Assembly: GCF_000421185.1 (NCBI RefSeq)
Contig: NZ_ATWJ01000011.1
Coordinates: forward strand, 1-64,000
Length of the DNA: 64,000 nucleotides
DNA from: Ornithinimicrobium pekingense DSM 21552
Lineage (GTDB): Bacteria > Actinomycetota > Actinomycetes > Actinomycetales > Dermatophilaceae
Direction: 5' to 3'
Each line of letters begins with the position of its first letter. The first letter of the stretch is position 1. Under the pieces are notes generated by a model, which saw only the letters and a list, made by a program, of their open reading frames with translations, was not told where the DNA came from and made no database searches. Position numbers and translations under genes: made by a program. Of the stretch, positions 18,361 to 64,000 are shown piece by piece.

Positions 18361-18442
18361 GGGCGGCCGGGGACGTCCCGGCCACCCGTCGATGATAAGC
18401 CGCTGCCGGCGCCTCTCCGACGCGGGTGGCGGGGCCTTTGCC

Positions 18443-19645
18443 TCAGCCGATGACGTTGGCGTTCAGGTACTTCTGCAGCGCGACCACGGTGCGGTAGTTC
18501 ATGTAGGTCGAGCCGTCGCGCGTCAGACCAATGCGGCTCTGTAGCGCAGCCTGCGAGGCCGGGCCCCACAGGCCGTCGGCGTTCGTGCCGACGGTGCGCT
18601 GCAACGCCTTGATCGTCCCGTTGTCCCAACGGCCGGTCTCGGACACGCCCGCCCAGCGCTGGATCGCCTTGACGGTGAGCGGCCCGCGGCTGCCGTCCAG
18701 GGCGAGCGGTGCCATGGTGCTGGTCCCGCCACCGCCGGCGGACCCGCCCGAGCCGCCGGAGGCCGGCGCCACGATCGTGCCGCTGATCCACCCCCGGCCG
18801 TCGGACAGCTTGAGCCAGCCGTTGGTGCTGATCTGTCCCGCCAGCTTGGTGCCGTGCGCCGCTCCCCCGACCACGCCGTAGGACGTCGACGGACCGGAGC
18901 GGATGTTCGCACCCGCGGCGGCCGTCACCGTGTAGGTGCCCGACTCCGCCGGCGGCTGTGGGGCAGGAGCGGGCGCGGGAGCCGGGGTCGGCGTGCCGGA
19001 GACCGGCGCCACGATCGTGCCGCTGATCCACCCCCGGCCGTCAGACAGCTTGAGCCAGCCGTTGGTGCTGATCTGCCCAGCGAGCCTGGTGCCGTGCGCC
19101 GCTCCCCCGACCACGCCGTAGGACGTCGACGGACCGGAGCGGATGTTCGCACCCGCGGCGGCCGTCACCGTGTAGGTGCCCGACTCCGCCGGCGGCTCCG
19201 GAGCCGGGACGGGGGCGGGGGCGGGCGCCGGGGTGTCGCCACCGGGGTACGGCGCCGAGCCGTTCTCCATCGTCAGGCCCGCGCGCACCGAGCAGACCGG
19301 CCAGGCGCCCGGGCCCTGGACCTTGAGCACCCGCTGCGCGACGGTGACCTGTTGGACCTTCGTGGCCTGGTGGGCGTAGTCGGCAAACTCCTTGCCGCCG
19401 AAGCCGGTCCACGTCGGGTGCCAGAACTGCAGGCCGCCGTAGTAGCCGTTGCCGGTGTTGATGTCCCAGCGCCCGCTCGACTCGCAGTCGGCCACCCGGT
19501 CCCACACGTTGTGGTCGTCGGCCTGCGCGGCAGGTGCGAGGACCGTCAGGGAGCTGACCGAGGCGACGGCGCCGGCGAGCGTGACACCGCCCGCCCGGCG
19601 GCGCAGGCGGGTCGATCGGGGGCGACGGTGGGCAGCGGTAGCCAC
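18443..19645 (-). CDS. secreted Rpf-like transglycosylase with SH3 repeats
   Basis: Cell-wall hydrolase of the resuscitation-promoting-factor type, 400 residues from the GTG at 19645 (AAGGATC ribosome site; the frame continues 33 codons upstream without one). An Arg-rich signal peptide ends at APAAQA. The Rpf domain follows (VWDRVADCESSGRWDIN to PVCSVRAGL), with the catalytic Glu in CESSGRW. Two almost identical bacterial SH3 domains (GTYTVTAAAGANIRSGPSTS to WISGTIVAP) are separated by Pro/Ala linkers, and a C-terminal peptidoglycan-binding-like domain ends the protein. The DNA of the two SH3 modules repeats with an exact 240-bp period. A CRP/GlxR-like site lies about 100 bp upstream. Confidence 0.88.
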   Translation of the reverse strand: MATAAHRRPRSTRLRRRAGGVTLAGAVASVSSLTVLAPAAQADDHNVWDRVADCESSGRWDINTGNGYYGGLQFWHPTWTGFGGKEFADYAHQATKVQQVTVAQRVLKVQGPGAWPVCSVRAGLTMENGSAPYPGGDTPAPAPAPVPAPEPPAESGTYTVTAAAGANIRSGPSTSYGVVGGAAHGTRLAGQISTNGWLKLSDGRGWISGTIVAPVSGTPTPAPAPAPAPQPPAESGTYTVTAAAGANIRSGPSTSYGVVGGAAHGTKLAGQISTNGWLKLSDGRGWISGTIVAPASGGSGGSAGGGGTSTMAPLALDGSRGPLTVKAIQRWAGVSETGRWDNGTIKALQRTVGTNADGLWGPASQAALQSRIGLTRDGSTYMNYRTVVALQKYLNANVIG

Positions 19646-19745
19646 AGGGGATCCTTCCGGCCGGACAAGTGCGCCGCACGGGACAGAAGTGGCGCAGGGG
19701 ACGAAGAGCCACCGTAGGTGGGCAGCATCACTCAGGGGAAGCACA

Positions 19746-19761
19746 TGTGACCAGCATCACG
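19746..19761. promoter_or_regulatory. CRP/GlxR-like binding site
   Basis: TGTGACCAGCATCACG matches the cAMP-receptor consensus TGTGA-N6-TCACA at nine of ten fixed bases. It lies 101 bp upstream of the Rpf-like gene start. CRP-type control of rpf genes is known in mycobacteria and corynebacteria. Confidence 0.55.
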
Positions 19762-19819
19762 CGTGTCACACCAGAAACAACCGTCACACAACCGCTATCC
19801 GTCCGACCGCTGGATCAGG

Positions 19820-21640
19820 TCAGAAGCGGTCGGGGATGACGGCCCGCGGGTCGAAGTCGGGGCCGAGCGGCCACCAGGAGGCGGCCCCCTCCAGGTAGGC
19901 GTAGGAGGCGATCGCCGCACCGCCGACCAGGCAGAGGGTGACCACCACGAGCGTGACGGCGCCGCGCGGCACCGCCCCCCGCACCAGCGTCCGCGACCCG
20001 CGACGCAGCGACGTCGACCCCAGGCCCCACCAGGCGAGCCAGGCGGCCGCCAACGACCCGGCACCCAGCGCCAAGGGGTGGTCGACCGGGATTCCCGACA
20101 TCGTGCCGCTGGACGTGAGGAAGCGGGAGAGCCCGACCGCAACCACCAACGCCGCGGCGGCCGGAAGCAGCAGCGCGAGGACGGTCGAGACCAGGCTGGC
20201 GACGAGGTGCCACGGGGAGCTGACGACCAGCAGCGGCACGTCGCTGCGCCGGGGGCCGGCGACGTGGCGGCGCAGCACGAGGCTGGTCAGCACGCGGTCG
20301 ACGGTGCGCGCCGTCACGCCCCACACCACGAACAGCGACCACGCGACCAACGGCGCCGCCGCAGCCAGCCCGACGAAGCCGACGAGCATCGCGGTCAGCG
20401 TCCCCACGCGCGAGCTGCGGCCGATCCGCGGGTCGGGGCTGCCATGGTCGACGGGGTCGGGCAGGGCGAGGTCTCCTTGGTGCTGCGGCGACACCGGGTA
20501 TGGCGCGCCACCGGGCTCCGCTCGGTGCGGCCCCGGCCACCGCTGCTCCTCCCACTGCTCCTGCTCCGCCCACTGCTGCTGCTCCCACCGCGCAGGCTCG
20601 CGCCGGGGCCGGACCGGCTCACGCTGCGGTGCCGGGCGCGGCGCAGGACGCCGCCGCGGCGTCTGCCGCGTGACCGGCGAGCGCGGCTGCAGCCGGGTCA
20701 GGTCGCCGTGGTCCAGACGGGTGGGGTCGTCGTCGTGCCAGGTGGGCAGCGCGGTCGTGACGTCCTCACCGCGCGAGTAGCGCTCCAGCCCGGTCAGCAC
20801 CTGCTGCTGGGAGGGCCTGCGCGCCGGGTCGGGGTCGAGCGCCGCGGCGAGCAGCGGCCGCAGGGCGGGGTCGACGCCGTCGAGCTGGAGACGCCCGCGC
20901 ACGACACGGTCGACGACGACCGTCAGGGGGCCGCGGCCGAAGGGCGGCTGGCCGCTGGCCGCGAACGCCAGGGTCGCTGCCCATCCCCACCAGTCGGTCG
21001 CCTCGCCCACGTCACCACCCTCGACGACCTCCGGCGAGAGGTAGCCGGGCGTACCCATCACCAGCCCGGTCGCGGTGAGCCGCACGTCGTCGGCCACCTG
21101 CGCGATCCCGAAGTCGATCACCACCGGCTCCAGCGTCCCGTCGTGGTCGACCAGCAGGACGTTGCCCGGCTTGAGGTCGCGGTGGACGATGCCCGCACCG
21201 TGGATCGCCCGCAGCGCCTCCCCCAGCCCGCGGCCCAGACGCAGCAGGTCATCCCCCCGCAACGGGCCGTGCTCCTCGACGACCCGGTCCAGCGGCCGGC
21301 CGGGGACGAACTCGGTGACGATGTAGGGGGCCGGCCCGTCGACGTCCGCGTCGATGACCGCGGCCACCCGCGGGGAGTGCACCCGCGCGAGCGTGCGCAC
21401 CTCGCGGCGCAGCCGGGCCCGGGCCTGCTCGTCGTGGGCGATGTGCTCGCGCAGGACCTTGACGGCGACCTCGCGCCCGTCCCCGGAGCGCGCACGCCAT
21501 ACCACCCCCATGCCGCCCTCGCCGACGCGCTCGCCCAGCCGGTAGTCGCCGAGCACCCGCGGCACCACGACCGGCACCGGGCGCGTGGGCGCGCCGGAGG
21601 AGCCGGACGTGCGGGGCAGCTCGGACGTCACAGGGTCCAC
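19820..21640 (-). CDS. transmembrane Ser/Thr protein kinase
   Basis: Kinase of 606 residues from the GTG at 21640 (GAGGAG 11 bp upstream). A complete Hanks-type domain is visible: glycine loop VGEGGMGVV near 39-47, ATP-binding Lys61, HRDLKPGN from 153, DFG from 176, and LSPEVVEGG as the APE region. It is followed by a disordered Arg/Pro linker with an odd Trp/Gln/Glu-rich stretch (WEQQQWAEQEQWEEQRW). The C-terminal third has about four or five membrane spans instead of the single span plus PASTA or sensor domain of PknB-type kinases. Divergent from otsA. Substrate unknown. Confidence 0.9.
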   Translation of the reverse strand: MDPVTSELPRTSGSSGAPTRPVPVVVPRVLGDYRLGERVGEGGMGVVWRARSGDGREVAVKVLREHIAHDEQARARLRREVRTLARVHSPRVAAVIDADVDGPAPYIVTEFVPGRPLDRVVEEHGPLRGDDLLRLGRGLGEALRAIHGAGIVHRDLKPGNVLLVDHDGTLEPVVIDFGIAQVADDVRLTATGLVMGTPGYLSPEVVEGGDVGEATDWWGWAATLAFAASGQPPFGRGPLTVVVDRVVRGRLQLDGVDPALRPLLAAALDPDPARRPSQQQVLTGLERYSRGEDVTTALPTWHDDDPTRLDHGDLTRLQPRSPVTRQTPRRRPAPRPAPQREPVRPRREPARWEQQQWAEQEQWEEQRWPGPHRAEPGGAPYPVSPQHQGDLALPDPVDHGSPDPRIGRSSRVGTLTAMLVGFVGLAAAAPLVAWSLFVVWGVTARTVDRVLTSLVLRRHVAGPRRSDVPLLVVSSPWHLVASLVSTVLALLLPAAAALVVAVGLSRFLTSSGTMSGIPVDHPLALGAGSLAAAWLAWWGLGSTSLRRGSRTLVRGAVPRGAVTLVVVTLCLVGGAAIASYAYLEGAASWWPLGPDFDPRAVIPDRF

Positions 21641-21755
21641 GGTATGCGGTCTCCTCGTGGGTGCGCGGTCGGACGCGGTCGGGTCGGGTCGACCGGGAGA
21701 GCCGCCCGGACCGCCGACAACTAGGGTTGGGACGGTCAACGAACGAGGAGAACGG

Positions 21756-23234
21756 ATGGTTTCCCCAGCGCCCGCGCGCACCTACGACTTCGTCATCGCC
21801 GCCAACCGGCTGCCGGTCGACCGCACGGTCGGCCCCGACGGCGAGGAGACCTGGACCACCAGCCCGGGTGGCCTGGTCACGGCGATGGAGTCGGTGATGC
21901 GCGACCGCGAGGCGGCCTGGGTCGGGTGGGCCGGGTTCCCCGGTGACGCGCCGGAGCCGTTCGACGACGGGCCGCTGCGGCTGTGCCCCGTGCCGCTGTC
22001 GGCCGAGGACGTCGAGCACTACTACGAGGGGTTCTCCAACGGCACCCTGTGGCCGCTCTACCACGACGTGATCGTCCCCCCGACCTTCCACCGCTCCTGG
22101 TGGAACGTCTACCGGGAGGTCAACCGGCGCTTCGCCGACGCGATCGCCGAGGTTGCCGCCGAGGGCGCGACCGTCTGGGTGCACGACTACCAGCTGCAGC
22201 TGGTGCCGGCGCTGCTGCGCGACCAGCGCCCCGACCTGCGGATCGGCTGGTTCAACCACATCCCCTTCCCGCCGGTGGAGCTGTTCGCCCAGCTGCCCTG
22301 GCGCGCCACGATCCTGCGCGGGCTGCTGGGCGCCGACTTCCTGGGCTTCCAGCGACCCGACGACGCCCGCAACCTCATCCGCTCCTGCCGCGCGGTCCTC
22401 GGGGCCACGCACAAGGGCGACGTCGTGACCTGGGCAGGGGCCGACGACGGCCGGCCCGGGGCCTCGCCGCGGGCGGTCCGCGCCGCGTCGATCCCGATCT
22501 CGATCGACGCCGCCGGCTTCCGCGAGCTGGCCGACCAGCCGTCGGTCAAGGCACGCGCCAAGGAGATCCGCGAGTCGCTGGGCAATCCCGACGTCGTCCT
22601 CCTCGGGGTCGACCGGCTCGACTACACCAAGGGCATCCGCCACCGGCTGCGCGCCATCGAGGAGCTGCTCGAGGACGGGGCGATCTCCCCGCCCGAGGTG
22701 GTCTTCGTGCAGGTCGCGACGCCGAGCCGCGAGCGCGTCGAGGCCTACCGCACGCTGAAGGAGCAGATCGAGGGCACGGTCGGCCGCATCAACGGCGACT
22801 TCTCCCACCTCGGTGACACCGCGGTGCACTACCTGCACCAGTCCTACCCGCGCGAGGAGATGGCCGCGCTCTTCCAGGTGGCCGACGTCATGCTCGTCAC
22901 CCCGCTACGCGACGGCATGAACCTCGTGGCCAAGGAGTACGTCACCGCCCGCCACGACGGCGGCGGCGCCCTGGTGCTCAGCGAGTTCACCGGCGCCGCC
23001 GAGGAGATGCGCGCGGCCTACCTGTGCAACCCGCACGACATCACCGGGCTCAAGGAGACGATCCTGCGCGCCATCCGCGACACCCACGAGGAGAAGCGCC
23101 GGCGTATGCGGTCGCTGCGCCGCCAGGTGCGCACCTACGACGTGCAGGCCTGGGCTGATAGTTTCCTGCGTGCCCTGGAGGTCGCTCCCGGCCGGCCGGC
23201 CCGGTCGCGCAGGAGCATCTCCCCCATGGTCTGA
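21756..23234 (+). CDS. otsA: alpha,alpha-trehalose-phosphate synthase
   Basis: GT20 glycosyltransferase, 492 residues, making trehalose-6-phosphate from UDP- or ADP-glucose and glucose-6-phosphate. Signatures include [60 protein letters not shown] and [15 protein letters not shown]. The ATG at 21756 follows the ribosome site GAACGAGGAG; TAGGGT at 21722 is a good -10, so the leader is about 20 nt. 55 bp upstream of otsB, forming the two-step OtsAB route for an osmolyte and storage disaccharide. Confidence 0.96.
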
Positions 23235-23289: not shown

Positions 23290-24084
23290 GTGCCGCTGCC
23301 CCCTGAGCTCACCGACGCCGTCGCCCGCTTCGCCGCCCACCGCGAGGTCCTCGTCGCCACCGACTTCGACGGGGCCCTGGCCCCACTGGTCCTGGACCCG
23401 ATGAGCGCCCGCCCGGTCGAGGGGGCCATGGAGACGCTCACCGCCCTGTCCGACCTGCCCGGCACGACCGTCGCCCTCGTCTCGGGGCGCGCCCTGGAGC
23501 CGCTGCGCGAGCTCTCCGGCGCCGACGACCCCATCGTGCTGGTCGGCTCGCACGGGGTCGAGAGCTCCGCCCGGCCCGACGGGCTGGTCCTGACCGACGA
23601 GCAGCGCGGCCTGCTGGACCACCTCGAGGAGGCGCTGGACCGGCTCTCCGAGGACTACCCGGGCGTCCGGGTCGAGCGCAAGCCGGCCGGGCGCGTGGTC
23701 CACACCCGCGGCCTGTCCCGCCCCCTGGGCGAGGAGGCGCTGGAGGCCGCCGAGGCCCTGGGCGAGCTGCATACCTCGCTGGTGGTGACCCCGGGCAAGG
23801 AGGTCGTCGAGCTCGCGGTCGCGCACGTCGGCAAGGGCGCGGCGCTCGTGGGGCTGGCCCGCGAGCTGGGCGCCGACGCGGTGCTCTACGCCGGTGACGA
23901 CGTCACCGACGAGGACGGCTTCGCCGCCCTGGCCGACGACCCCGACACCGAGCGCGCCGCCCGGCACCTGTCCGTGCGCGTCGGCGACGGGCAGACGCGG
24001 GCCCGCTTCCGGGTCGCCGACGAGCACGAGCTGGTCGAGCTGTTCCGGGCGCTGCTGGAGGCTCGCGCCGGCGCGGTCACTTGA
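23290..24084 (+). CDS. otsB: trehalose-6-phosphate phosphatase
   Basis: HAD-superfamily phosphatase, 264 residues, second step of the OtsAB pathway. Motif I is ATDFDGALAPLVLDP; it reads D-F-D-G-A-L where D-x-D-G-T-L is usual, an Ala for Thr change that can be tolerated. Motif II is ALVSGR, and motifs III/IV are seen in KGAALVGLARELG and YAGDDVTDEDGFAAL. The GTG at 23290 is the first sensible start, with GAAAGAAG upstream. Its end overlaps the convergent permease gene by 8 bp. Confidence 0.93.
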   Translation: MPLPPELTDAVARFAAHREVLVATDFDGALAPLVLDPMSARPVEGAMETLTALSDLPGTTVALVSGRALEPLRELSGADDPIVLVGSHGVESSARPDGLVLTDEQRGLLDHLEEALDRLSEDYPGVRVERKPAGRVVHTRGLSRPLGEEALEAAEALGELHTSLVVTPGKEVVELAVAHVGKGAALVGLARELGADAVLYAGDDVTDEDGFAALADDPDTERAARHLSVRVGDGQTRARFRVADEHELVELFRALLEARAGAVT

Positions 24085-25000: not shown

Positions 25001-25929
25001 AGCTGGACTCCTCGCCGACGGATGAGCAGGAGCTGGAGGACGGAGACGATGACGGTGACCAGGAAGAAGATCACGGCGTTGGCCATCTGGTAGGCGTAGT
25101 CGCCGGAGTTGAAGCCGGTGAAGATCGACATGGCCACGCTCATCGTGGAGGTGCCGGGCCCGCCGTTGGTCAGGCCGACGATGATGTCGTAGGCGTTGAG
25201 GAAGTTCTTGACGCCGAGGACGGTGTTGATCACGACATACCCGGCCATGAGCGGAAGCGTGATCGCCCAGAACTGCTTGCCCGGGGTCGCGCCGTCGAGC
25301 GCCGCCGCCTCGTAGACCTCGTCGGGGATCGCCTGGAGCCCGGCGAGGTAGATGATCAGCGCCATCGGGATCGACTGCCAGGCGGTGACGATGACGATGG
25401 AGAGCCAGGCGAGGTCCTCGTTGGCCAGGATGCTCTGCGACAGCGGCCCGCCGACGCCCAGCGACTGCACGATGCTCGGCAGCGAGGTGGAGAAGAGGTA
25501 GTTGAAGACGTAGGCGATGACGATGCCGCTGATGACCATCGGCACGAAGAAGACGCCGCGCAGCGCGGTCTTGAGCCGGATCTTGGCGTTGAGCCCCAGC
25601 GCCAGCAGCATCGCCAGCACGTTGACCACGATGACCGTGACGACCGAGAAGCCGATGGTGAAGACGTAGGCCGACAGGATCTTGGGGTCGGTGAACATCA
25701 CCCGGTAGTTGTTGATCCCGACGAACTCCCAGTCGCCGAACCCCACGTAGTTGGTCAGGCTGAACAGGGCACCGGCCAGCGCGGGAAGGGTGATGAAGAA
25801 GGTGAACAGCGCCAGGGCCGGGAGGAGCATCAGGTAGTAGGTGCGCGGGACGCGGGACCGGTGCCGGGGCGCCTCCGCACCCGGGTCCGTGGCACGGGTG
25901 CCGGGGCTGGTCGCGGTGTCGGTGGTCAT
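24997..25929 (-). CDS. carbohydrate ABC transporter permease (MalF type)
   Basis: Permease of 310 residues with six spans and no large periplasmic insertion. The EAA loop is PDEVYEAAALDGATPGKQFW. A start at 25929 gives a short basic N terminus (PRHRSRVPRTYYLM) before the first span. Overlaps the following permease by 4 bp and lies 10 bp after the binding-protein gene, so the three are co-transcribed. Confidence 0.9.
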   Translation of the reverse strand: MTTDTATSPGTRATDPGAEAPRHRSRVPRTYYLMLLPALALFTFFITLPALAGALFSLTNYVGFGDWEFVGINNYRVMFTDPKILSAYVFTIGFSVVTVIVVNVLAMLLALGLNAKIRLKTALRGVFFVPMVISGIVIAYVFNYLFSTSLPSIVQSLGVGGPLSQSILANEDLAWLSIVIVTAWQSIPMALIIYLAGLQAIPDEVYEAAALDGATPGKQFWAITLPLMAGYVVINTVLGVKNFLNAYDIIVGLTNGGPGTSTMSVAMSIFTGFNSGDYAYQMANAVIFFLVTVIVSVLQLLLIRRRGVQL

Positions 25930-25939: not shown

Positions 25940-27238
25940 TCACGCGGACCGCAGCGCCAGCCGGCGCCAGTCCTCGTCGAGCTTGCGCAGGAAGGCCTGC
26001 GGGTCGCCGGTGATGAGCAGCTCCTGCAGGTAGTTGGCGAGCGGGATCGTCGGGGGGATGAAGGTGCTCGGGCCCTGGTAGAACCGGCCGGAGTCGACGT
26101 ACTCCTGCAGCCCGGCTACCCGCTCGTCCGGCTGGGCCGGGGCGTCCTCCAGCGGCGAGTAGTAGAGGTTCTCGGCGTTGTAGGTGTTGATGATGTCCGG
26201 CTGGAAGAGGTAGGTGAGCAGGTCCATCGCCGCCTCGCGGTGCGGTGTCTGCGCCGGGATCCACATGCCCAGGTCGAGGTTGACGCGGCACTTGGTGTCC
26301 TCGGGGTCGTCGGTCATCGGCAGCGGGAAGGTCGCGACCTGCAGGTCCGGGTCGACCTTCTCGATCTCGCCCAGCGCCCACGGGCCCTGGAGGTACATCG
26401 CCGCCTGCCCCTGGCCGAAGGCGAGGTTGCCGTCGGAGTAGCCGCGCGCGGCCGCGTCCTCGTTGTCGAACTCGGCCAGCTCGGTCATCCGCGCGACCGC
26501 GTCGGCCATCACCACGCTGAAGGAGTAGTCGGCGCCCGCCTCGAACTCGTCCCCCACCTCGCGCAGGCGGGCGTAGAACCCGGCGACGTCAATCATGCCG
26601 CCGACGCAGTAGTCGAAGATGCCCTGCGCCATCGTCCAGCCCTCCTGGTAGGTGCCGTAGATCGGCACCACGCCGGCGTCCTGGAAGGTCTGGCAGGCCT
26701 GGATCACCTCGCTCCACGTGGTGGGCACCTCGACCCCGTTGTCCTCGAACAGCGCCACGTTGTAGATCACGCCCGCGGCCGCGGTGGAGTAGGGCAGGAC
26801 GTGGAAGCGGTGCTCCTCGTCGGCGAACTGGCTGACCAGCTCCTGCACGTGGGGGGCGATCTGCTGCGCGGGGGCGGTGTCGCGCAGGTCGGTCAGCACG
26901 TCCCGGTTGACGTAGGTCGACGCCTCGTACTGGTAGTTGTAGCAGGCCAGGTCGGGCGGGACGCCGCGGACGAACTGCGCGGAGATCGAGGTCGGCGTGC
27001 TGTCGAAGAAGACGGGCGGACGCCCGCTCTGCTCGTTGTATGCCGTGATCAGCTCACCGAAGTAGCCGACGACCTCGGGCTTGTTCATCAGGAAGCGCAG
27101 GGTGTCGTCACCGAGACCGCCTGAGCAGCCGGCGAGGCCGCCGGAGCCGACGCCCAGGGCACCGACGCCCAGGGCCTTGAAGAGGGTGCGGCGGCTCAGG
27201 CCGGAGCCCGGGGTCACCGATGACACGCTGTGGTCCAC
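25940..27238 (-). CDS. extracellular sugar-binding lipoprotein (family 1)
   Basis: Solute-binding protein of 432 residues from the GTG at 27238, preceded by GGGGAGGA. The N terminus has a twin-arginine motif (SRRTLFKALGVGALG) and a lipobox (LAGC), so export by Tat as a lipoprotein is likely. Typical family-1 text follows: YGTYQEGWTMAQGIFDY, AMYLQGPWALGEIEK, FQPDIINTYNAENLY. It feeds the two permeases downstream. Ligand unknown. Its promoter lies in 27239-27322, which lacks the TTGCAA operators of the mal-type operon, so its regulation is probably different. Confidence 0.9.
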   Translation of the reverse strand: MDHSVSSVTPGSGLSRRTLFKALGVGALGVGSGGLAGCSGGLGDDTLRFLMNKPEVVGYFGELITAYNEQSGRPPVFFDSTPTSISAQFVRGVPPDLACYNYQYEASTYVNRDVLTDLRDTAPAQQIAPHVQELVSQFADEEHRFHVLPYSTAAAGVIYNVALFEDNGVEVPTTWSEVIQACQTFQDAGVVPIYGTYQEGWTMAQGIFDYCVGGMIDVAGFYARLREVGDEFEAGADYSFSVVMADAVARMTELAEFDNEDAAARGYSDGNLAFGQGQAAMYLQGPWALGEIEKVDPDLQVATFPLPMTDDPEDTKCRVNLDLGMWIPAQTPHREAAMDLLTYLFQPDIINTYNAENLYYSPLEDAPAQPDERVAGLQEYVDSGRFYQGPSTFIPPTIPLANYLQELLITGDPQAFLRKLDEDWRRLALRSA

Positions 27239-27322: not shown

Positions 27323-27372
27323 GGTATGGCGTGCACGGGGCCCTCACGTGAGTGGCCGGTGCACGCCATACC
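27323..27372. terminator. long hairpin, probable bidirectional terminator
   Basis: GGTATGGCGTGCAC (27323-27336) pairs perfectly with GTGCACGCCATACC (27359-27372) around 22 nt that can pair further (GGCC/GGCC with CACGTG inside). It separates the end of the LacI gene from the start of the binding-protein gene. There is no T-run. The arm sequence also appears at the joints of the 32-bp arrays near 49.7 kb. Confidence 0.6.
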
Positions 27373-31097: not shown

Positions 31098-31144
31098 CGT
31101 ATGCCGTGCCGGCCCCGCTCTCGCGGCGGGGTGCACGGCATACG
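31098..31144 (-). terminator. hairpin between malE and malF (12-bp outer stem)
   Basis: CGTATGCCGTGC (31098-31109) pairs perfectly with GCACGGCATACG (31133-31144), with an inner CCCCGC/GCGGGG stem. Together with the next hairpin it can lower permease expression relative to the binding protein or protect the malE message 3' end. Confidence 0.65.
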
Positions 31145-32663: not shown

Positions 32664-32692
32664 AGTATGCAGTTCCCTGGCGGTCTTTGCAA
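32664..32692 (-). promoter_or_regulatory. malE promoter
   Basis: On the minus strand TTGCAA (32687-32692) and CATACT (32664-32669) are separated by exactly 17 bp. The -35 is the outer half of the LacI-type operator, so repressor binding would block polymerase. Confidence 0.65.
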
Positions 32693-49807: not shown

Positions 49808-50434
49808 TCAGTGGCCCCGGTCGACCCACTCCTGCAGGTGCGGCTTCTCGGCACCGATCGTGGTGTCACCGCCGTGGCCGGTGTGCACCACGGTGTCCTC
49901 CGGCAGCGTCAGCAGCCGCTCGCCGATCGAGCGGATGATCGTCGGGAAGTCGCTGAACGAGCGCCCCGTCGCACCCGGCCCGCCCTCGAAGAGCGTGTCG
50001 CCGCTGAAGACCACACCCAGCTCCGGCACGTGCAGGCAGCAGGCACCTGGGCTGTGGCCGGGCGTGTGCAGCACCCGGAGCGTGACCCCGGCGACCGTGA
50101 GCTCCATACCGTCCGCGAGCTCGGCGTCCGGCGCCTCGTGGTGCACCCGGTCCCACAGCATGCGGTCCTCGGGGTGCAGGTAGGTCGTGGCGCCGGTGCG
50201 GCGGGCGACCTCCGGGGCGGCGTCGATGTGGTCGTCGTGGCCGTGGGTCAGGACGAGCGCCCTGACGGTCCGCCCGCCCACGACCCCGAGGATCGTCTCG
50301 GCGTCGTGCGGGGCGTCGATGACGATGCACTCGGTGTCGTCGCCGATCACCCAGACGTTGTTGTCGACCTCCCACGTCCCGCCGTCGAGGCTGAACGTGC
50401 CGGTCGTCACGGCGTGGTCGATGCGGGCGGTCAT
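49808..50434 (-). CDS. MBL-fold metallo-hydrolase
   Basis: Metallo-beta-lactamase-fold hydrolase of 208 residues. Metal ligands are visible: THGHDDHID (H-x-H-x-D-H), [21 protein letters not shown] and the final His in [10 protein letters not shown]. Its ATG overlaps the mycothiol-dependent dehydrogenase stop by 4 bp, so the pair is co-translated. In mycobacteria and other actinobacteria an MBL hydrolase sits beside this dehydrogenase; a role in hydrolysing the mycothiol thioester product (S-formylmycothiol) is a reasonable inference. Confidence 0.92.
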
Positions 50435-51585: not shown

Positions 51586-51716
51586 ACGTGACCCTCCTCG
51601 GTCCTGGGGTTGGGCTGCTGGCCCCACCGTATGCCGTGCGCCCCGCCGGTGCGCAGGGGGCCGCGACGGGTGGGGCGGGCGGCCGGCAAGGAGGTGACGG
51701 GCCGGGGCGCGGACGC

Positions 51717-51742: not shown

Positions 51743-53446
51743 GTGCCACCGGAGAACGACCTGCCCGTGCCGACGCCCCTGACGGTCACGCCGGCCCCGA
51801 CGACCACCGCCCTGCTGACCGAGGCCGCCCGCCGCTGGCCGGAGCGGGTAGCGATCGACTTCCTCGGCGCGACCACGACGTATGCCGAGCTCGCCGACCA
51901 GGTGCGCGCGGCCGCCTCCGTCCTGCACGGGCTCGGGGTGCGGCGCGGTGACCGGGTGGCGCTGGTCCTGCCGAACTGCCCGCAGCACGTCGTCGCCTTC
52001 TACGCCGTGCAGTCGCTCGGGGCCACCGCCGCCGAGCACAACCCGCTGGCCGCCCCCGAGGAGGTGCGCGACCAGCTGCGGCTGCACGGCGCCCGGGTCG
52101 TCGTCGCCTGGGAGCACGCCGTCGCCACCGTGGCGCCGGAGGGCCGCACGGAGGGCCGCACCGTGCTGGCCGTCGACCTCACGGCGGCGATGCCGCTGCG
52201 CAGCCGCCTCCTGCTCCGGCTGCCGGTCAGGGCGGCCCGCGCCCAGCGCGCCCGGCTGCGTGCCCCGGTGCCGTCGGGCGTCGGCTCCTGGGACCGGAGC
52301 GTGGCGCAGGCCCGCGGGCCGCATGCGACCGTCGCCGCGCCCGGGCCCGAGCCGCACGACGTCGCCGTGCTGCTGCCCACCGGCGGCACGACCGGCAGCC
52401 CCAAGCTGGTGCCGCTGACCCACGCCAACCTTCTGGCCAACGTGGCGCAGGGCCGGCAGTGGGTCCCCGGCCTGCGCGAGGGCGAGGAGACCTTCGGGGC
52501 GGTGCTGCCGTTCTTCCACGCCTTCGGTATGACGCTCTGCCTCACCTTCGCGGTGTCGATGGGGGCGACCCAGGTGGTGCTGCCCAGCTTCGACGTCGAC
52601 CTGGTGCTGGCCGCGCTGCGGCGCCGCCCGCTGACGTTCCTGGCCGGCGTCCCGCCGATGTTCGACCGGCTCGAGGCCGCGGCCGGCGCGAAGGACCCGC
52701 GTCTGCTGCGCTCGTTGCGCTACGCGATCTCCGGGGCGATGGCCCTCGACCCGGCGGTCGCCTCGCGCTGGGAGGCCGCCACCGGCGGGCTCATCATCGA
52801 GGGCTACGGGATGACGGAGGCCTCCCCGGTGCTGCTGGGCAACCCCTTCGGCCCCGACCGTCGCCCCGGCACGCTCGGCCTGCCCTTCCCGGACACCCAG
52901 GTGCGCATCGTCGACCCCGAGGCGGTCGAGGACGACCCCGACGCCCCGGACGTGCCGGACGGTGAGACCGGAGAGCTGCTCGCGCGGGGGCCCCAGGTCT
53001 TCGCCGGCTACCTCGACGCGCCGGAGGAGACGGCCGCGGTGCTGCTGCCCGGCGGCTGGCTGCGCACCGGCGACCTCGTGCGCCGCGACCCCGAGGACGG
53101 GTTCGTCACCCTGGCTGACCGGCGCAAGGAGCTCATCGTCTCCGGCGGCTTCAACGTCTACCCCACGCAGGTCGAGGAGGCCGTCCGCGGCATGCCCGGG
53201 GTGGTGGACGTGGCGGTGGTGGGGGTGCCGGACGCCTCGCTCGGCGAGCACGTCGTCGCCGCCCTCGTGCTGGAGCCGGGTGTCACGGTCGACCTCGCCT
53301 CGTTGCGCGAGTGGCTGCAGGGCCGGGTGTCCCGCTACGCCCTCCCGCGGGCGGTGCACGTGCTCGAGGAGCTGCCACGCAGCCAGCTGGGCAAGGTGCT
53401 GCGCCGCCGGGTGCGCGACCTGCTCCCCGGACGGCAGTCCGACTAG
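51743..53446 (+). CDS. long-chain fatty-acid-CoA ligase (AMP-binding)
   Basis: Acyl-adenylate-forming enzyme of 567 residues. P-loop [18 protein letters not shown], adenine pocket [12 protein letters not shown], hinge and ribose contact [18 protein letters not shown] with [16 protein letters not shown], and the catalytic Lys in [10 protein letters not shown] near the C terminus. It activates fatty acids for degradation or lipid synthesis. An Ala/Arg-rich insertion around residue 150 is unremarkable. The start GTG at 51743 lies directly after a 20-bp palindromic operator, suggesting tight control and a very short leader. Convergent with ispF, 8 bp apart. Confidence 0.93.
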
Positions 53447-56600: not shown

Positions 56601-56637
56601 TGCGCGTGCGGGTCGCGGTGATCAGGTATGCAGCCGC

Positions 56638-57557: not shown

Positions 57558-58826
57558 GTGGACCCCGTCACCGCAGCCCTGCTCGGCGCCCTCGTGGGTG
57601 CGGCGCTGACGGCCGTCGTCCTCGGCCTGCGCGACGGCCCCGCGCGGCGTGGGCCGTCCTCGCCCGGCGCACCCCATACCCCGGCGGAGGACGAGGTCCC
57701 CGGTGGCGTCGGCGAGGTGCTGGCGGTGCTGCGGGCCGGGGGGATCGTGGTCGACAACGCCATGCGGGTGCGCCTGGCCAGCACCTCGGTCGTGCCCTTC
57801 GGCCTGGTGCGCGGCGAGGACCTGGTGCGTCCGGAGCTGCGTGACCTGGCCGAGGCGGTCCAGCGGGACGGGATGATCCGGGAGCGGGAGTTCGACATCG
57901 CCCGGGGCCCGCTCGGCGAGGGCCGCATCGTGCTGGGCGCCCGCGTGGCCCCGATCGGCTCCGGCCTCGTGCTCATCCTGGTCGACGACCGCACCCAGGC
58001 CCGCCGCGTGGAGGAGGTCCGCCGCGACTTCGTCGTCAACGTCAGCCACGAGCTGAAGACCCCGGTGGGCGGCCTGGCGCTGCTCGCCGAGGCCGTGCAG
58101 GACGCCGCGGACGACCCCGCGGCGATCGCCCGCTTCGCCGGCCGGATGAAGACCGAGACCGAGCGCCTCACCCGGCTGGTCAGCGAGATCGTCGACCTGT
58201 CCCGGCTGCAGACCAGCGACCTGCTCGCCGACATGGTCGTCGTCGACGTCGCCGCCTGCGCCGAGCAGGCCGTCGACCACACCCACCTGCTGGCCGGGCA
58301 CCGCGACGTGCTCGCGCTGACCACGCAGGACCCCCGGCTGCTGCGGGTCTACGGCGACCACGAGCTGATCACCACGGCGATCCGCAACCTGGTGAGCAAC
58401 GCGATCTCCTACTCCGAGGACAGCACGCGTGTCAGCGTGGTCACCCGGCGGGTCGGCAACCTGGTCGAGGTGGCCGTGACCGACCAGGGGCGCGGCATCT
58501 CCCTCAGCGACCAGGAGCGCATCTTCGAGCGCTTCTACCGCGTCGACGCCGCGCGGTCGCGCAGCACGGGCGGCACCGGTCTGGGGCTGTCCATCGTCAA
58601 GCACATCTGCGACAACCACGGCGGCGAGGTGACGGTCTGGAGCCAGGAGGGCGAGGGCTCGACCTTCACCATGCGGCTGCCGGCGGCGCTCGACGACCTG
58701 CCGGTGGGCGCCCTCGCCCCGCACCGGCCCGGACAACCCTCCCGGGTCGCCGACCCGGCCCACGGCGACGCCATACCATCGGAGGCGTCCACCCCCTCAC
58801 GCCCAGGGAAAGGCGAGCACAGATGA
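57558..58826 (+). CDS. senX3: sensor histidine kinase SenX3
   Basis: Membrane histidine kinase of 422 residues with a single N-terminal span (VTAALLGALVGAALTAVVLG), a PAS-like domain (about 50-145), the dimerisation helix with His164 in NVSHELKTPVGG, and an ATPase domain with N box (LVSNAISYS), G1 (VTDQGRGIS), F box (FERFYRVD) and G2 (GGTGLGLSIV). Known role: phosphate-starvation signalling to RegX3 together with PhoU. GTG start with a leaderless -10. Overlaps regX3 by 4 bp. Confidence 0.95.
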   Translation: MDPVTAALLGALVGAALTAVVLGLRDGPARRGPSSPGAPHTPAEDEVPGGVGEVLAVLRAGGIVVDNAMRVRLASTSVVPFGLVRGEDLVRPELRDLAEAVQRDGMIREREFDIARGPLGEGRIVLGARVAPIGSGLVLILVDDRTQARRVEEVRRDFVVNVSHELKTPVGGLALLAEAVQDAADDPAAIARFAGRMKTETERLTRLVSEIVDLSRLQTSDLLADMVVVDVAACAEQAVDHTHLLAGHRDVLALTTQDPRLLRVYGDHELITTAIRNLVSNAISYSEDSTRVSVVTRRVGNLVEVAVTDQGRGISLSDQERIFERFYRVDAARSRSTGGTGLGLSIVKHICDNHGGEVTVWSQEGEGSTFTMRLPAALDDLPVGALAPHRPGQPSRVADPAHGDAIPSEASTPSRPGKGEHR

Positions 58827-59506
58827 CGCGGATCCTCGTTGTCGAGGACGAGGAGTCCTTCTCCGACCCCCTCTCCTACCTGCTCGAGCGGGAGGGGTAT
58901 GACGTGGCCGTCGCCGCGACGGGCCCGGACGCGCTGACGGAGTTCGACCGCAACGGTGCCGACCTGGTGCTGCTGGACCTGATGCTCCCGGGCCTGCCGG
59001 GCGTCGACGTGCTGCGCACGCTGCGCCAGCGCTCCAGCGTCCCGGTGATCATGCTGACCGCCAAGGACTCCGAGATCGACAAGGTCGTGGGGCTGGAGGT
59101 CGGGGCCGACGACTACGTCACCAAGCCCTACTCCGGGCGTGAGCTGCTGGCCCGCATCAAGGCCGTGCTGCGCCGCCTGTCCGAGCCCGAGGAGCTGGTG
59201 CCCTCGACGGTGGAGTCCGGCCCCGTGCGGATGGACGTCGAGCGGCACATCGTCCAGGTCGGCGGCGAGACGGTGTCGATGCCGCTCAAGGAGTTCGAGC
59301 TGCTGGAGATGCTGCTGCGCAACGCCGGGCGGGTGCTGACCCGCGGTCAGCTCATCGACCGCGTCTGGGGCAGCGACTACGTCGGCGACACCAAGACCCT
59401 CGACGTGCACATCAAGCGCCTGCGCGCCAAGGTCGAGCCCGACCCGGCCAAGCCGGTGCACATCGTCACCGTGCGCGGGCTGGGGTACAAGTTCGACGCG
59501 GAGTGA
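58823..59506 (+). CDS. regX3: response regulator RegX3
   Basis: OmpR/PhoB-type response regulator of 227 residues. Receiver domain with phospho-acceptor Asp52 in LVLLDLMLPG, acidic pocket VVEDEES, and Lys in VTKPYSGREL. The C-terminal winged helix contains VLTRGQLIDRVWGSDYVGDT and RLRAKVE. Its ATG overlaps the senX3 stop. It regulates phosphate-responsive genes. All functional residues are intact. Confidence 0.96.
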   Translation: MTRILVVEDEESFSDPLSYLLEREGYDVAVAATGPDALTEFDRNGADLVLLDLMLPGLPGVDVLRTLRQRSSVPVIMLTAKDSEIDKVVGLEVGADDYVTKPYSGRELLARIKAVLRRLSEPEELVPSTVESGPVRMDVERHIVQVGGETVSMPLKEFELLEMLLRNAGRVLTRGQLIDRVWGSDYVGDTKTLDVHIKRLRAKVEPDPAKPVHIVTVRGLGYKFDAE

Positions 59507-60440: not shown

Positions 60441-60450
60441 GGCGCCCACC

Positions 60451-60999
60451 CTACTGGGGGCCGGGGGCGCTCTCCCGCGGGCCGGGTATGCCGTCGCCGG
60501 CGGCGTCGAGGGCCTCGAGCTCGGCGCGGAACGCCTCGAGGTTGCGGGTGGGCTCCCCGCGGGCCCTGCGCCAGGCCCACTCGCGCCGGATCGAGGTCCA
60601 GAACCCCAGCCGCAGCAGCTCGTCGAAGGGCTCGTCGCAGGCCGTCAGCACCGCACCCATCAGCTCGTCGACCGCCTGGTCGTCCAGCCCGGCGAGCAGC
60701 ACCCGGCCGGTGACGAAGACGTCCCCGGTGCTGTCGACGGCGTAGGCGAGCCCGGGCATGCGCAGGCCGCGGCGCAGCAGGTAGCGGTAGACCTGCTCGT
60801 GGTTCTCGTCCGGGTTGCGCACCACGAAGGCGCGCACCTCCAGCGCACGGTCCCCGACGACCAGCGAGGCGACGGTGCGCAGCTTGCGCTCACCGGGCAG
60901 GGTCACCACGAGCTCGCGGGCGTGGGCCCCGTCCTCGACCTCCAGCCCCAGGGCGAGGAGCTGGTCGCGCAGCCGCCCCAGCGCGTCGGGGCCGCTCAC
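60451..60999 (-). CDS. YbjN domain protein
   Basis: Protein of 182 residues with a YbjN-type alpha/beta domain ([60 protein letters not shown]) and a basic/acidic C-terminal tail (about 140-182). It resembles type III secretion chaperone folds; the function in actinobacteria is unknown. Its start overlaps mshA by 4 bp, and this mshA-ybjN-gpm linkage is conserved (Rv0486-Rv0487-Rv0489 in M. tuberculosis). Confidence 0.88.
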
Positions 61000-62378
61000 G
61001 CGCTCTCCCTCGCGGGCAGGTCGCCCGCCCGCGGCAGCCCACCTTGCGGCAGCCCACCCGGCACCGGCTGCGCGCCCTCCAGGGCCGCGAGCGCCTCACG
61101 GCGGGCGGCCACCGCCTCGGCGTAGACCGCCACGAGCTCGTCGACCGTGTGCTCCCAGGAGAACTGCTCGGCGTGCTCCACGGCGCGCGCGCTCCATACC
61201 TCCCGGTCGCGAGGGTCGGCGAGCGCCTCGAGCGTGGAGCCGAGGGCGTCGGCCCAGTCGCGGGGCTCGTGGCCGTCCACGAGCACCCCGGCCTGCCCCA
61301 CCGCGACCGGCAGGCCGCCGACGCGCGCGGCGACGACCGGGGTGCCGCTGGCCAGCGCCTCGACGGCGACCAGGCCGAAGGACTCGTTGTAGGAGGGCAC
61401 GGCGACGAGGTCGGCGGCGCGGTACCAGTCGGCCAGCTCCTCGCGGGAGACCGGCGGGCCGTAGCGGACCACGCCCTCCAGGCCCTCCTGCTCGACGACC
61501 CGCCGCAGCGCCTGGGGACGGGACAGGCCGGAGCCGGACAGCCCGCCGAGGATGACCACCTGCAGCCGGTCCCGCAGCGCGGGGTCACGGCGCACCAGCT
61601 CCCCCGCCGCGCGCACGAGCACGTCGGGGGCCTTGAGCGGCTGGATACGGCCGACGAAGAGCAGCACGACCGCGTCAGGGTCCACCTCCACCCGGGCGCG
61701 GGCCTGCGCGCGCGGGCCGGGCCGGAAGGTCTCCAGGGCGACACCGGGCTGCACGACGTGCACGGTCGCGGGGTCGGCACCGTAGAGGTCGACCAGCTGG
61801 CGCGCCTCGTCGCGGGTGTTGGCCACCAGCGCGTCCGCCGCGGCGACCACCTGCTCCTCGCCGATCTCGCGGCCGCGGGGCTCGGGGTCGTCCCCCGCGG
61901 CGAGCGCGCGGTTCTTGACCTTGGCCATGGTGTGCATGGTCTGCACGAGCGGGACGTCGAACCGGTCGGAGGCGAGCCAGCCGACCTGCCCGGAGAGCCA
62001 GTAGTGGGCGTGGATGAGGTCGAAGTGCCCCTCGGGGCGGCCCGCCAGGTGCGAGGAGAAGTCGGCGGCGAAGGCGCACAGCTGGCCGGGCAGGTCGTGC
62101 TTGCCCAGGCCCTCCAGCGGACCGGCGGTGACGTGGTGGACCGTGACCCCGGGCGCCAGGCGCACCGAGTCGCCCTGCGAGCCCGAGGTGGCTCTCGTGA
62201 AGATGTCGACGAGCACGCCCCGCCGCGCGAGCCGGGTGGCGGTCTCGACGACGTAGACGTTCAGGCCCCCGGCGTCGCCGGTGCCCGGCCGCTCCAGGGG
62301 CGAGGTGTGCACCGACACCATGGCCACGTGGCGCAGGCCGCCGTCGGGCCGGCCGCCGCCGTTCCTGCTCGTCGTCAC
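60996..62378 (-). CDS. mshA: D-inositol-3-phosphate glycosyltransferase MshA
   Basis: GT4 enzyme of 460 residues catalysing the first step of mycothiol synthesis: UDP-GlcNAc plus inositol-3-phosphate. N-terminal Rossmann domain HVAMVSVHTSPLERPGTGDA with GGLNVYV, AHYWLSGQVGWLAS and QTMHTMAKVKN. C-terminal domain VLLFVGRIQPLKAPDVLVRA, and the nucleotide site SYNESFGLVAVEALASGTPV with the conserved E-x7-E. The GTG at 62378 is 6 bp after CAGACT, possibly leaderless. Overlaps ybjN. Supports assignment of the mycothiol-dependent dehydrogenase at 50431. Confidence 0.95.
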   Translation of the reverse strand: MTTSRNGGGRPDGGLRHVAMVSVHTSPLERPGTGDAGGLNVYVVETATRLARRGVLVDIFTRATSGSQGDSVRLAPGVTVHHVTAGPLEGLGKHDLPGQLCAFAADFSSHLAGRPEGHFDLIHAHYWLSGQVGWLASDRFDVPLVQTMHTMAKVKNRALAAGDDPEPRGREIGEEQVVAAADALVANTRDEARQLVDLYGADPATVHVVQPGVALETFRPGPRAQARARVEVDPDAVVLLFVGRIQPLKAPDVLVRAAGELVRRDPALRDRLQVVILGGLSGSGLSRPQALRRVVEQEGLEGVVRYGPPVSREELADWYRAADLVAVPSYNESFGLVAVEALASGTPVVAARVGGLPVAVGQAGVLVDGHEPRDWADALGSTLEALADPRDREVWSARAVEHAEQFSWEHTVDELVAVYAEAVAARREALAALEGAQPVPGGLPQGGLPRAGDLPARESA

Positions 62379-62441: not shown

Positions 62442-63278
62442 GTGACTCCTCGACCCGGGCGCGCGCACGGCCGTCCGGTCGGCACGATCACGCGTGGCAC
62501 CACCAACCCCAACCGGCTGCGCCGGGTCGACCGGTGGATGGCGTGGGCGCTGCGCGACGTGCTGCGCGCCCCGTCGGAGCCGCCGGTCGTGGTCGACCTC
62601 GGCTACGGCGCGTCGCCCGTCACCGTGCTCGAGCTCGCGGGCCGCCTGCGCGCGGTCCGGCCGGACGTGCGGCTGGTCGGGGTGGAGATCGACCCCGAGC
62701 GCGTCGCCCGGGGGCGGGCCGTGGCCGACCCGCCGCGCGTCGACTTCGTCCTGGGCGGCTTCGAGGTGCCGGTGCCGCCGGGCGCGGGAGCGGCGCCGCA
62801 CGTGGTGCGGGCCTTCAACGTGCTGCGCCAGTATGCCGAGGAGGAGGTCACGGGCGCCTGGGCGCAGGTGGTCGACCGGCTGGTGCCCGGCGGGGTGCTC
62901 GTCGAGGGCACCTGCGACGAGGTGGGCCGGCTGGCGGCGTGGGTCGACGTGCGGCGCGACGCCGCCGGGCGCCCCGAGCCGCGCACCCTGACGCTGGCGT
63001 GGCGCCTCGCGGGCCTGGAGCGGCCGTCGGTGGTGGCCGAGCGCCTGCCCAAGGCCCTCATCCACCGCAACGTCCCCGGCGAGGGGGTGCACGCACTCCT
63101 GGCCGAGCTCGACTCGGCCTGGGCGCGGCACGCCCCGCTGGCGGGGTACGGCGCACGCCAGCGCCTGGTGGCGTGCGCCGAGGACCTGCGGGCCCGGGGC
63201 TGGCCGGTGCACCACGGCCCGGGCCGGTGGCGGCTGGGCGAGCTCACCGTCGGCTGGGCGGCGGTCGCCCCGCGCTGA
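62442..63278 (+). CDS. class I SAM-dependent methyltransferase-like protein
   Basis: Protein of 278 residues with a Rossmann methyltransferase core: VVVDLGYGASPVTVLELAGR (motif I, with Y in place of the second Gly of G-x-G-x-G), DVRLVGVEIDPERVARGR (post I), VRAFNVLRQYAEEEVTGAWA (motif IV region). A C-terminal domain around PRTLTLAWRLAGLERPSVVA is unassigned. Substrate unknown. GTG at 62442 lies 6 bp after TACCCT, leaderless style. Divergent from mshA by 63 bp. Confidence 0.8.
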   Translation: MTPRPGRAHGRPVGTITRGTTNPNRLRRVDRWMAWALRDVLRAPSEPPVVVDLGYGASPVTVLELAGRLRAVRPDVRLVGVEIDPERVARGRAVADPPRVDFVLGGFEVPVPPGAGAAPHVVRAFNVLRQYAEEEVTGAWAQVVDRLVPGGVLVEGTCDEVGRLAAWVDVRRDAAGRPEPRTLTLAWRLAGLERPSVVAERLPKALIHRNVPGEGVHALLAELDSAWARHAPLAGYGARQRLVACAEDLRARGWPVHHGPGRWRLGELTVGWAAVAPR

Positions 63279-63302
63279 GGTGCGTGGTGGCCCCGGGCGC
63301 GG

Positions 63303-63776
63303 TCAGGCGTCGCCGGGAGTGTCCTCGTCGCCCTCGACGCAGCGCGCGTAGTCGTCCTGCAGCCGGATGATGTCGGCCTCGTCGAAGCGCCCGAAGGCCA
63401 GCTCGAGGACACGGGTCGGCTCCGACGTGGAGTTGCCCAGACGGTGGACCGCACCGGGCGGCACCCACACCATGTCACCGGGACGGGCGCTCCAGGCTCG
63501 GTCGTCGACCTGCACGTCCGCCACGCCGTCGAGCACCTGCCACATCTCGGCACGGTGGCCGTGGGTCTGCAGCGAGAGCCGGCAGCCGGGCTCGATCGTG
63601 ATCGTCTTGACCGTCACCGGCTCGTTGGTCGAGAACTGCTGGAAGCGGCCCCACGGACGCTCCACGACGAAGACGTCCTCGGTGCGGTCGCGCTCGGGCC
63701 GCTCCGCCACCGCGGGCTCCTGCGGAGAGGGGTCCCGCCGCGTCCCCACGCGCGGGTCCTGGATGGACTGCGTCAT
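63303..63776 (-). CDS. cupin-domain protein, phosphomannose isomerase-like
   Basis: Single-domain cupin of 157 residues related to the C-terminal part of mannose-6-phosphate isomerase/GDP-mannose pyrophosphorylase. It reads VERPWGRFQQFSTNEPVTVK, LSLQTHGHRAEMWQVLDGVA (metal ligands H-x-H, Glu) and PGDMVWVPPGAVHRLGNSTS (second His). ATG at 63776; the first 35 residues are disordered-looking. A sugar-binding or isomerase role is likely but not provable from one cupin alone. Confidence 0.82.
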   Translation of the reverse strand: MTQSIQDPRVGTRRDPSPQEPAVAERPERDRTEDVFVVERPWGRFQQFSTNEPVTVKTITIEPGCRLSLQTHGHRAEMWQVLDGVADVQVDDRAWSARPGDMVWVPPGAVHRLGNSTSEPTRVLELAFGRFDEADIIRLQDDYARCVEGDEDTPGDA

Positions 63777-63826
63777 TGCTTCCTCCTCGCCGGTGCGCCC
63801 TGCACGCCCCGGCCGTCGACGACCTC

Positions 63827-64000
63827 TCACCGCTCGGAGAGGAAGGCACCCACGATCTCACGGGTCTGCTGACGGTGCTCCCACATGATGCCACCCGGGG
63901 GCGCGACGTGCACCGATCCGGCCGGCAGCGCCTCGGCCAGCTCGCAGGCGACGGACGCGGGATGCGTGTCGTCCTCCTCCTGCCCCAGCACCAGGACCGG
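63827..64000 (-). CDS. partial alpha/beta hydrolase, C-terminal end
   Basis: The last 57 residues of a protein whose start lies beyond the window. The text PVLVLGQEEDDTHPASVACE and LAEALPAGSVHV, then PGGIMWEHRQQTREIVGAFL, is typical of the end of an alpha/beta-hydrolase fold: the Asp-bearing strand and a late His helix. The family assignment is tentative because the nucleophile region is missing. Confidence 0.6.
   Translation of the reverse strand, partial: PVLVLGQEEDDTHPASVACELAEALPAGSVHVAPPGGIMWEHRQQTREIVGAFLSER

Follow-up and report, generated by a model that had tools for sequence, protein, structure and literature searches.

A genome-wide DNA word with strand-specific spacing in Ornithinimicrobium and its family: a possible self-recognition signal for DNA exchange

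Among genome-wide words, HIP1 (highly iterated palindrome 1) of cyanobacteria is very abundant and palindromic, and hence without orientation, KOPS-type signals (FtsK-orienting polar sequences) are polar along the replichore, and in RecBCD it is RecC that reads Chi. Two Gram-negative families, the Pasteurellaceae and the Neisseriaceae, are well known for self-recognition words used in DNA exchange (PMC7811141); the DNA uptake sequences (DUS) have dialects differing by one base, and one genome carries two of them (PMC3630211, in the sections available). Here, we describe a word, approximately gGTATGnCGtgC, that recurs throughout a 64,000-nucleotide stretch (hereafter, the window; contig C11) of the 3.85-Mb draft genome of Ornithinimicrobium pekingense DSM 21552 (G000). 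In four genomes tested, copies on the same strand keep apart over distances of up to about 1 kb and copies on opposite strands show no such avoidance, a new property.

The word is like HIP1 in its genome-wide abundance and unlike it in having an orientation. It resembles the DUS of Neisseriaceae in its length of about 10 bp, its thousands of copies, its inverted pairs at terminators, its dialects, its genomes with two dialects and perhaps a lower frequency in acquired DNA (PMC3630211 and PMC2397512), but differs in the Gram-positive, high-GC host, in having no known reader, in the exclusion that acts only between copies of one strand, in the use of an unrelated word in one clade, and in that PilM_2, a marker of type IVa pili (T4aP), is unmatched in 179 of 186 genomes. 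In the uptake signal sequence (USS) of Pasteurellaceae, uptake is independent of orientation (PMC1939737, available part), unlike the strand-specific spacing seen here. With Chi of RecBCD or AddAB, the word shares a short asymmetric sequence and a single reading orientation (deduced here from same-strand exclusion), and perhaps also a place in the core genome rather than in acquired genes (PMC8022716).

Sequence, enrichment and spacing of the word

The earlier note on this DNA, which counted by eye, held that about 46 of 58 TAT or ATA trinucleotides between positions 18,400 and 64,000 (the native segment) lie in GTATG or its complement CATAC, against a compositional expectation of about 13%, and that about a quarter do so in positions 1–11,400. 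The recount agrees closely, at 46 of 60 (29 TAT and 31 ATA) against a computed 13.3% (binomial p ~1e-28) and at 11 of 54 in the left segment. GTATG is enriched, as proposed, but the true word is longer: the 46 native sites are flanked by G at -1 in 33, C at +6 in 31, G at +7 in 44 and T at +8 in 27, and the 517 sites in 845.6 kb of the genome yield the full word given above, with the core GTATGNNG. The core is rigid, in that swapping any base of GTATG in GGTATGNCGTGC leaves 0–5 copies compared with 48. The GC content is 72–74%. Across the whole genome, GGTATGCC occurs 817 times versus 11 for the reversed word and GTATGNCGTGC 307 times versus 4, and parts of the word rank highest among the octamers of the sample when judged against an order-3 Markov model: ACGGCATA (104 observed versus 4.0 expected), CGGCATAC (180 versus 16.3) and GGCATACC (142 versus 12.7).

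Codon-aware nulls were generated by shuffling the synonymous codons of 565 called genes, with 40 rounds confined to single genes and 40 run across genes; genes were called with our own GC3-based caller, which covered 74% of the sequence, and the space outside genes includes missed ones. The shuffles fail to reproduce the observed frequencies: the core occurs 312 times compared with about 80 (within genes) and about 69 (across genes), the highest shuffle reaching 103, and GTATGNCGT 128 times compared with 9.2 and 5.6 (highest shuffle, 15), that is, 3.9–4.5-fold and 14–23-fold fewer in the shuffles (z 26–64). This enrichment is understated because the word's own TAT codons inflate the expectation; 103 of the 191 TAT codons and 35 of the 69 ATA codons in the called genes of the 845.6 kb are contained in the word. 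Relative to genes, the word lies in the same orientation 196 times and in the opposite one 127 times, in all frames, with similar density in called genes (0.52 per kb) and outside them (0.60 per kb) and some excess at gene ends. The frame-independent, DNA-level signal postulated earlier is thus supported by the genome counts, the Markov octamers, the rigid core, the spread over orientations and frames, and the codon shuffles, with enrichment present outside the window as well, and the word is a genome-wide DNA-level word.

An apparent avoidance of near misses (GTACGNNG at 0.31 of expectation) was rejected as specific to the word, given that all GTAC sites stand at 0.40. This value, relative to codon shuffles of the called genes of O. 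pekingense, resembles avoidance of a palindromic restriction site, and AGCGCT and TCGCGA are also low in the sample.

The spacing rule is based on O. pekingense, a complete genome of the same genus (G124), G141 (genus g43) and G064 (genus g27), plus two 16-kb stretches, from G178 (g51) and G092. In O. pekingense, 75 of 89 neighboring words less than 500 bp apart point in opposite directions (p ~3e-11), an excess mainly caused by same-strand avoidance. Same-strand spacings below 750 bp are depleted (29 versus ~87), those of 2–3 kb form a peak (109 versus 61.5) and those of 12–20 kb are again depleted (2 versus 16.4), and nearest distances to the opposite strand stay near the shift null up to about 4 kb, with some excess at 300–600 bp (94 versus 71.6) and a depletion of long ones. 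Same-strand pairs less than 1 kb apart number 45 against 131.6 expected in O. pekingense, 73 against 133.5 in G124, 120 against 207.5 in G141 and, for CGAAGGGG, 53 against 109.2 in G064 (Poisson p from 2e-18 to 7e-9 across the four genomes). The respective cross-strand pairs number 140 against 131.1, 116 against 124.9, 241 against 206.0 and 96 against 98.3; in G141 the cross-strand pairs are slightly too many (p 0.02), and in G064 so are convergent pairs closer than 100 bp (17 versus 4.6), both of which may reflect hairpin pairs or uneven density. The control word GTCTGNNG shows no avoidance (106 same-strand pairs against 90.8, also 80 against 88.2).

When every enriched 6- to 8-mer was screened for same-strand avoidance, GTATG words came top in O. 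pekingense and G124, and CGAAGGG words in G064; the screen yielded no convincing second comb word in the first two genomes and no convincing first one in 400 kb of G160. The 16-kb stretch of G178 carries GGATGCCG 16 times, 8 per strand, with 1 same-strand pair within 1 kb against 7.7 expected and 8 cross-strand pairs against 7.7; CGAAGGGG in the G092 stretch gives 1 same-strand pair against 6.8, and a 16-kb stretch of G064 with 10 sites is neutral (3 versus 3.0). Because same-strand copies are redundant and cross-strand copies are not, the simplest reading is a signal recognized in a single orientation, with one copy within about 1 kb being enough. Codon or local mutation bias does not predict strand-specific spacing, whereas an orientation-read signal does.

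No strand polarity is seen in long stretches of the O. pekingense genome (80 plus and 73 minus sites, and 125 and 132), nor in 20 stretches of 20 kb from the complete genome G124, the origin of which was not located (71/67 and 82/88 in the two halves, single stretches ranging from 1/5 to 8/3 and 16/11). As a control, Chi in 500 kb of E. coli K-12, a region that we take to lie entirely on one side of the origin, is polar (108 sites, 90:18), and its same-strand pairs within 1 kb show no clear exclusion (14 versus 18.3), with low power at 108 sites. The word accordingly lacks the replichore skew of KOPS/FtsK-type signals in the O. pekingense and G124 stretches; a KOPS-like or leading-strand Chi reading was rejected on this ground, and the evidence runs contrary to the earlier proposal of a chromosome-organization motif, taken in the KOPS sense.

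Distribution in the family, dialects and candidate readers

NCBI assigns Ornithinimicrobium to Ornithinimicrobiaceae and Janibacter to Intrasporangiaceae, and the family used here (f1) appears to include both; its genera are given as g-numbers, with names that we infer. Occurrences of GGTATGNNG were counted in 186 genomes of this family, and genomes with at least 200 sites and three times the count of the reversed word were classified as positive. By this measure, 104 genomes are positive, 16 weak and 66 negative, the positive ones belonging to 31 of 53 genera. A draw across the order comprised 248 genomes, 20 of them in the family; no genome among the remaining 228, which represent 18 other families, passes (table judged by eye), and within this sampling the word is confined to the family. 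Judged by the window gene at 35387–36634, which encodes a DUF4032 protein, Ornithinimicrobium and Serinicoccus are the nearest named relatives, with the exception of a contig labelled as Acidobacteria. This contig (L001), named for an Acidobacteria metagenome-assembled genome, encodes a DUF4032 protein sharing 90% identity with the window's, carries 4 GTATGNNGY in 6 kb and probably derives from a relative of Ornithinimicrobium.

An unrelated word, CGAAGGGGG, replaces the GTATG word in G064, and Janibacter terrae (L028) agrees. It is present in 797–1,939 copies in 19 of the 186 genomes (16 of g27 and 3 of g36), all of them GTATG-negative, and in at most 80 copies elsewhere. As g27 and g36, represented by one genome each, are sisters among GTATG genera in the trees of LeuS (17 rows) and ComEC (20 rows), one replacement event suffices. 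A further word, GGATGCCG, exceeds 2,000 copies in 7 of the 186 genomes (two of g9, four of g15, one of g51), the next highest count being 1,336, and G036 and G037 of g15 carry both words (GGTATGNNG 557 and 538 times, GGATGCCG 2,195 and 2,099 times). Some related genera have a dialect changed at one base, others an unrelated word, in place of the O. pekingense form. The dialects follow phylogeny, with the GGATGCCG genera only partly placed on the trees, and smaller shifts occur in named loci, such as CC after GTATG in Serinicoccus and Knoellia. Eighteen genera are wholly negative, and g27, g36 and g51 among them have another word. No other word was found in 56 kb of G084, a negative genome of the mixed genus g33, at a scan length that recovers the known words in O. 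pekingense, G124 and G064.

Several smaller observations accompany this survey. In g46, G153 and G158 carry GGATGCCG 1,210 and 1,336 times, 1.3–2.2 times the counts of the other ten genomes of the genus (614–949), perhaps a word arising or fading. G009 falls below the positive threshold and above the control, and in G008, the only RecC carrier among five g4 genomes (with RecC in several pieces), the GTATG word is at control level. GGAGTTG occurs 10 times in 16 kb of G038. A candidate word in G184, AGTAGGTG, was rejected as a local tandem array; in this genome, L251:18440-19652 contains tandem arrays on opposite strands, with repeat periods of 24 and 59 bp and TCGAGTAGGTGCGGA in common, which are local as far as seen. 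Separate from CGAAGGGGG, G064 (L171–L190) harbors a dispersed palindromic repeat centered on GCAARACCCTAGGGTYTTGC at some 26 places within 400 kb, for which the tallies of 52 and 53 count palindromes once per strand.

None of five gene families tested over the 186 genomes tracks the word, and a reader was not found among them. ComP on T4aP is the sequence-specific receptor of the Neisseria kind, and the T4aP marker PilM_2 is matched in only 7 of the 186 genomes and not in O. pekingense; the word is therefore not classed as a DUS with a ComP-type reader. ComEC is present in 180 genomes, and the Tad-type ATPase TIGR03819 in 184 at an E-value of 0.001 and in 168 over its curated cut-off, which was used because the former threshold also matched 13 of 14 control genomes. 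PDDEXK_1, the nuclease domain expected in AdnAB and RecB, is found in proteins of all 186 genomes, and among the best listed matches many fall in open frames 1,000–1,200 amino acids long. These three markers were set aside as near universal and uninformative. RecC was matched in 90 genomes, 89 of which were kept after a weak match in G010 (E 3.7e-4) was dropped before the count, and occurs in 46 of 104 positive, 7 of 16 weak and 36 of 66 negative genomes; as its presence does not track the word, it was rejected as the reader. ComEA is matched in 20 of 20 com loci from word-positive and word-negative genomes, and no gene adjoining comEA or comEC that tracks the word was seen in 20 loci with a crude gene caller that missed genes. 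The competence machinery is thus present in the family, in word-negative genomes too. In Micrococcus luteus, transformation requires Tad/Flp pili (PMC6370729, in the part available).

What the word might do

Our preferred reading, to which we give, on indirect evidence, a probability of slightly under one half (about 0.48), is that gGTATGnCGtgC acts as a self-recognition word for the uptake and recombination of outside DNA; this Gram-positive family would then have an uptake sequence for natural transformation, one of the roles suggested in the earlier note. Word-bearing DNA would be favored either by part of the Tad/Flp-ComEA-ComEC competence route or by a cytoplasmic factor encountering the single strand after import; imported strands with the word would recombine more often, and biased conversion could then spread it. 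Once an imported strand has one copy, another would add nothing, giving one comb per strand, and copies on the other strand would serve imports of that strand, giving two independent combs. We infer, tentatively, single-strand import as the source of the combs. Somewhat less firmly still, the whole family may use short self words with rapid turnover (GTATGNCG, GGATGCCG, CGAAGGGGG and possibly more), recognized on a single strand, most simply that of an imported single strand during transformation, with one of these words replaced outright by an unrelated one in the Janibacter-type clade. This would be a bacterial parallel to the turnover of recombination-hotspot motifs.

Several results weigh against uptake. 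Uptake by Haemophilus influenzae does not depend on USS orientation (PMC1939737, available part), such that the classical mechanism does not predict a strand-specific comb and an uptake signal here would be a variant of it. None of the tested competence genes separates word-positive from word-negative genomes, and evidence of competence in family members was not found in the literature covered. Neither an uptake sequence nor a Chi-like word for Actinobacteria or these genera turned up among the matches listed in a literature search of titles and abstract starts, with most subscription journals outside it, and an Actinobacterial uptake sequence would be unprecedented as far as seen. Fifteen of the 53 genera are negative with no word that can be named, from searches confined to g46 (G160, 400 kb) and g53 (G184, 56 kb). 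Overall, the coefficient of variation of same-strand spacings in O. pekingense is above random (1.20 versus 1.07, z 2.5), which we attribute to a small number of long gaps (3 exceed 20 kb). Finally, in comparisons of the window with ten named relatives, the six core bases are kept at 41 of 128 aligned sites versus 29–48% for random positions, and the flanks of the sites are more diverged (0.69–0.82 identity) than the aligned average (0.78–0.88). By locus, conservation is above random in three Ornithinimicrobium and one Serinicoccus and below it in L002 and four Serinicoccus, and L001 contributes one site. Single sites are therefore not clearly conserved between genera, and the comb is kept while many single teeth come and go.

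On the main rival reading, the combs would be expected if a helicase-nuclease, AdnAB or another, degraded broken or incoming double-stranded DNA, read the word on one strand and switched to recombination, because a Chi-like signal read in one orientation predicts redundancy on the same strand and independence across strands, with one comb per direction of travel. Such a signal also fits the universal PDDEXK_1 proteins, which are no more than candidates for AdnAB, and the scarcity of the word in the left segment of the window, as with Chi in recently acquired genes (PMC8022716, in part). Nevertheless, we consider it unlikely: the balanced strands of G124 differ from the 90:18 of E. coli Chi, RecC presence is unrelated to the word, E. 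coli Chi lacks clear same-strand exclusion in the same pair test, at its low power, and G160 has six PDDEXK_1 matches and no comb word found in 400 kb. Uptake is preferred because the lack of polarity, the dialects, the genomes with two dialects, the absence from some lineages and the DUS-like density favor DNA exchange between cells. Less likely again is some other chromosomal signal read in one orientation, for instance one for partition or repair that reaches about 1 kb along each strand, or a site of asymmetric modification; a modification or repair target was also among the suggestions of the earlier note. The word is asymmetric and rigid at GTATGNNG, and the combs alone name no pathway; however, modification and restriction sites are normally neither enriched nor spaced, polarity of the KOPS type is not seen, and the unrelated word at similar copy number in one clade would require a reader that changes specificity. 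An origin of the word in codon usage, base composition, or a local bias of mutation or repair is very improbable and was rejected on the codon-aware shuffles and the strand-specific spacing. Although the high GC content makes TAT rare and inflates any context preference, neither orientation nor frame restricts the word, which also lies outside called genes, its enrichment is confined to this family among those sampled, and a local process predicts neither the 1-kb same-strand exclusion nor the spacing of 2–3 kb.

If the word does serve uptake, it would be an independent case of self-recognition in high-GC Gram-positives, with at least three words in one family and several close species pairs that differ. 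The family would then offer a natural series in which to follow shifts in the specificity of a reader and the rewriting of thousands of sites in a genome. As a test, the same-strand spacing rule needs genome sequence alone; it could distinguish signals with one reading orientation, whether Chi-like or read on a single strand, from those read in either, and it is applicable to any genome, including those of H. influenzae and Neisseria.

The word along the window

The native segment (18401–64000) contains 44 GTATGNNG, 24 on the plus and 20 on the minus strand (0.96 per kb). Four of these form two inverted pairs predicted to fold as strong hairpins, at 27324–27371 (plus-strand word from 27324, minus-strand word at 27364–27371; -43.2 kcal/mol, z -4.9) and at 31099–31143 (plus-strand word from 31099, minus-strand word at 31136–31143; -52.1 kcal/mol, z -7.2). 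The rare codons that the word was said to force are all in frame, but most of the positions given for them were off by 1–2. In the corrected positions, the plus-strand word at 46614–46621 imposes a TAT codon (46615) in a GH31 gene, that at 46722–46729 another TAT (46723) and that at 48499–48506 a GTA (48499), and on the minus strand the words at 47183–47190 and 58769–58776 coincide with GCA-TAC codons (TAC at 47188, after GCA) and an ATA codon (58773), respectively.

The remaining plus-strand copies lie at 20498–20505, 21642–21649, 23104–23111, 27038–27045, 32665–32672, 35179–35186, 38247–38254, 39202–39209, 42820–42827, 45161–45168, 49704–49711 and 49768–49775 (these last two a rare close same-strand pair), 51629–51636, 51880–51887, 52527–52534, 56626–56633, 58897–58904, 60486–60493 and 62831–62838. 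Those on the minus strand lie at 21495–21502, 23767–23774, 25233–25240, 30011–30018, 30925–30932, 34144–34151, 35880–35887, 39923–39930, 41313–41320, 41816–41823, 42614–42621, 45290–45297, 50102–50109, 51580–51587, 57672–57679 and 61192–61199.

To the left, positions 1–11,400 are word-poor, with 5 GTATGNNG (0.44 per kb versus 0.96 per kb in the native segment), in what is a single segment, and positions 11,401–18,400, outside the earlier count, hold 7 in 7 kb (1.00 per kb), the native density. The proposal that the word marks foreign DNA by its scarcity fits the first of these segments, with its integrase and cadmium transporter genes, but not the second, which is word-rich despite an integrase gene adjoining a tRNA; the word is therefore not a marker of every integrase-bearing stretch. 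The two integrase genes of the left part, both phage-type, lie at 4365–5480 and 17023–18147, the second next to the tRNA at 18288–18360. A gene for a Cad-family cadmium resistance transporter occupies 7642–8283 within the word-poor segment, and the segment at 11,401–18,400 carries class I ribonucleotide reductase genes after a cobalamin riboswitch (11607–11836).

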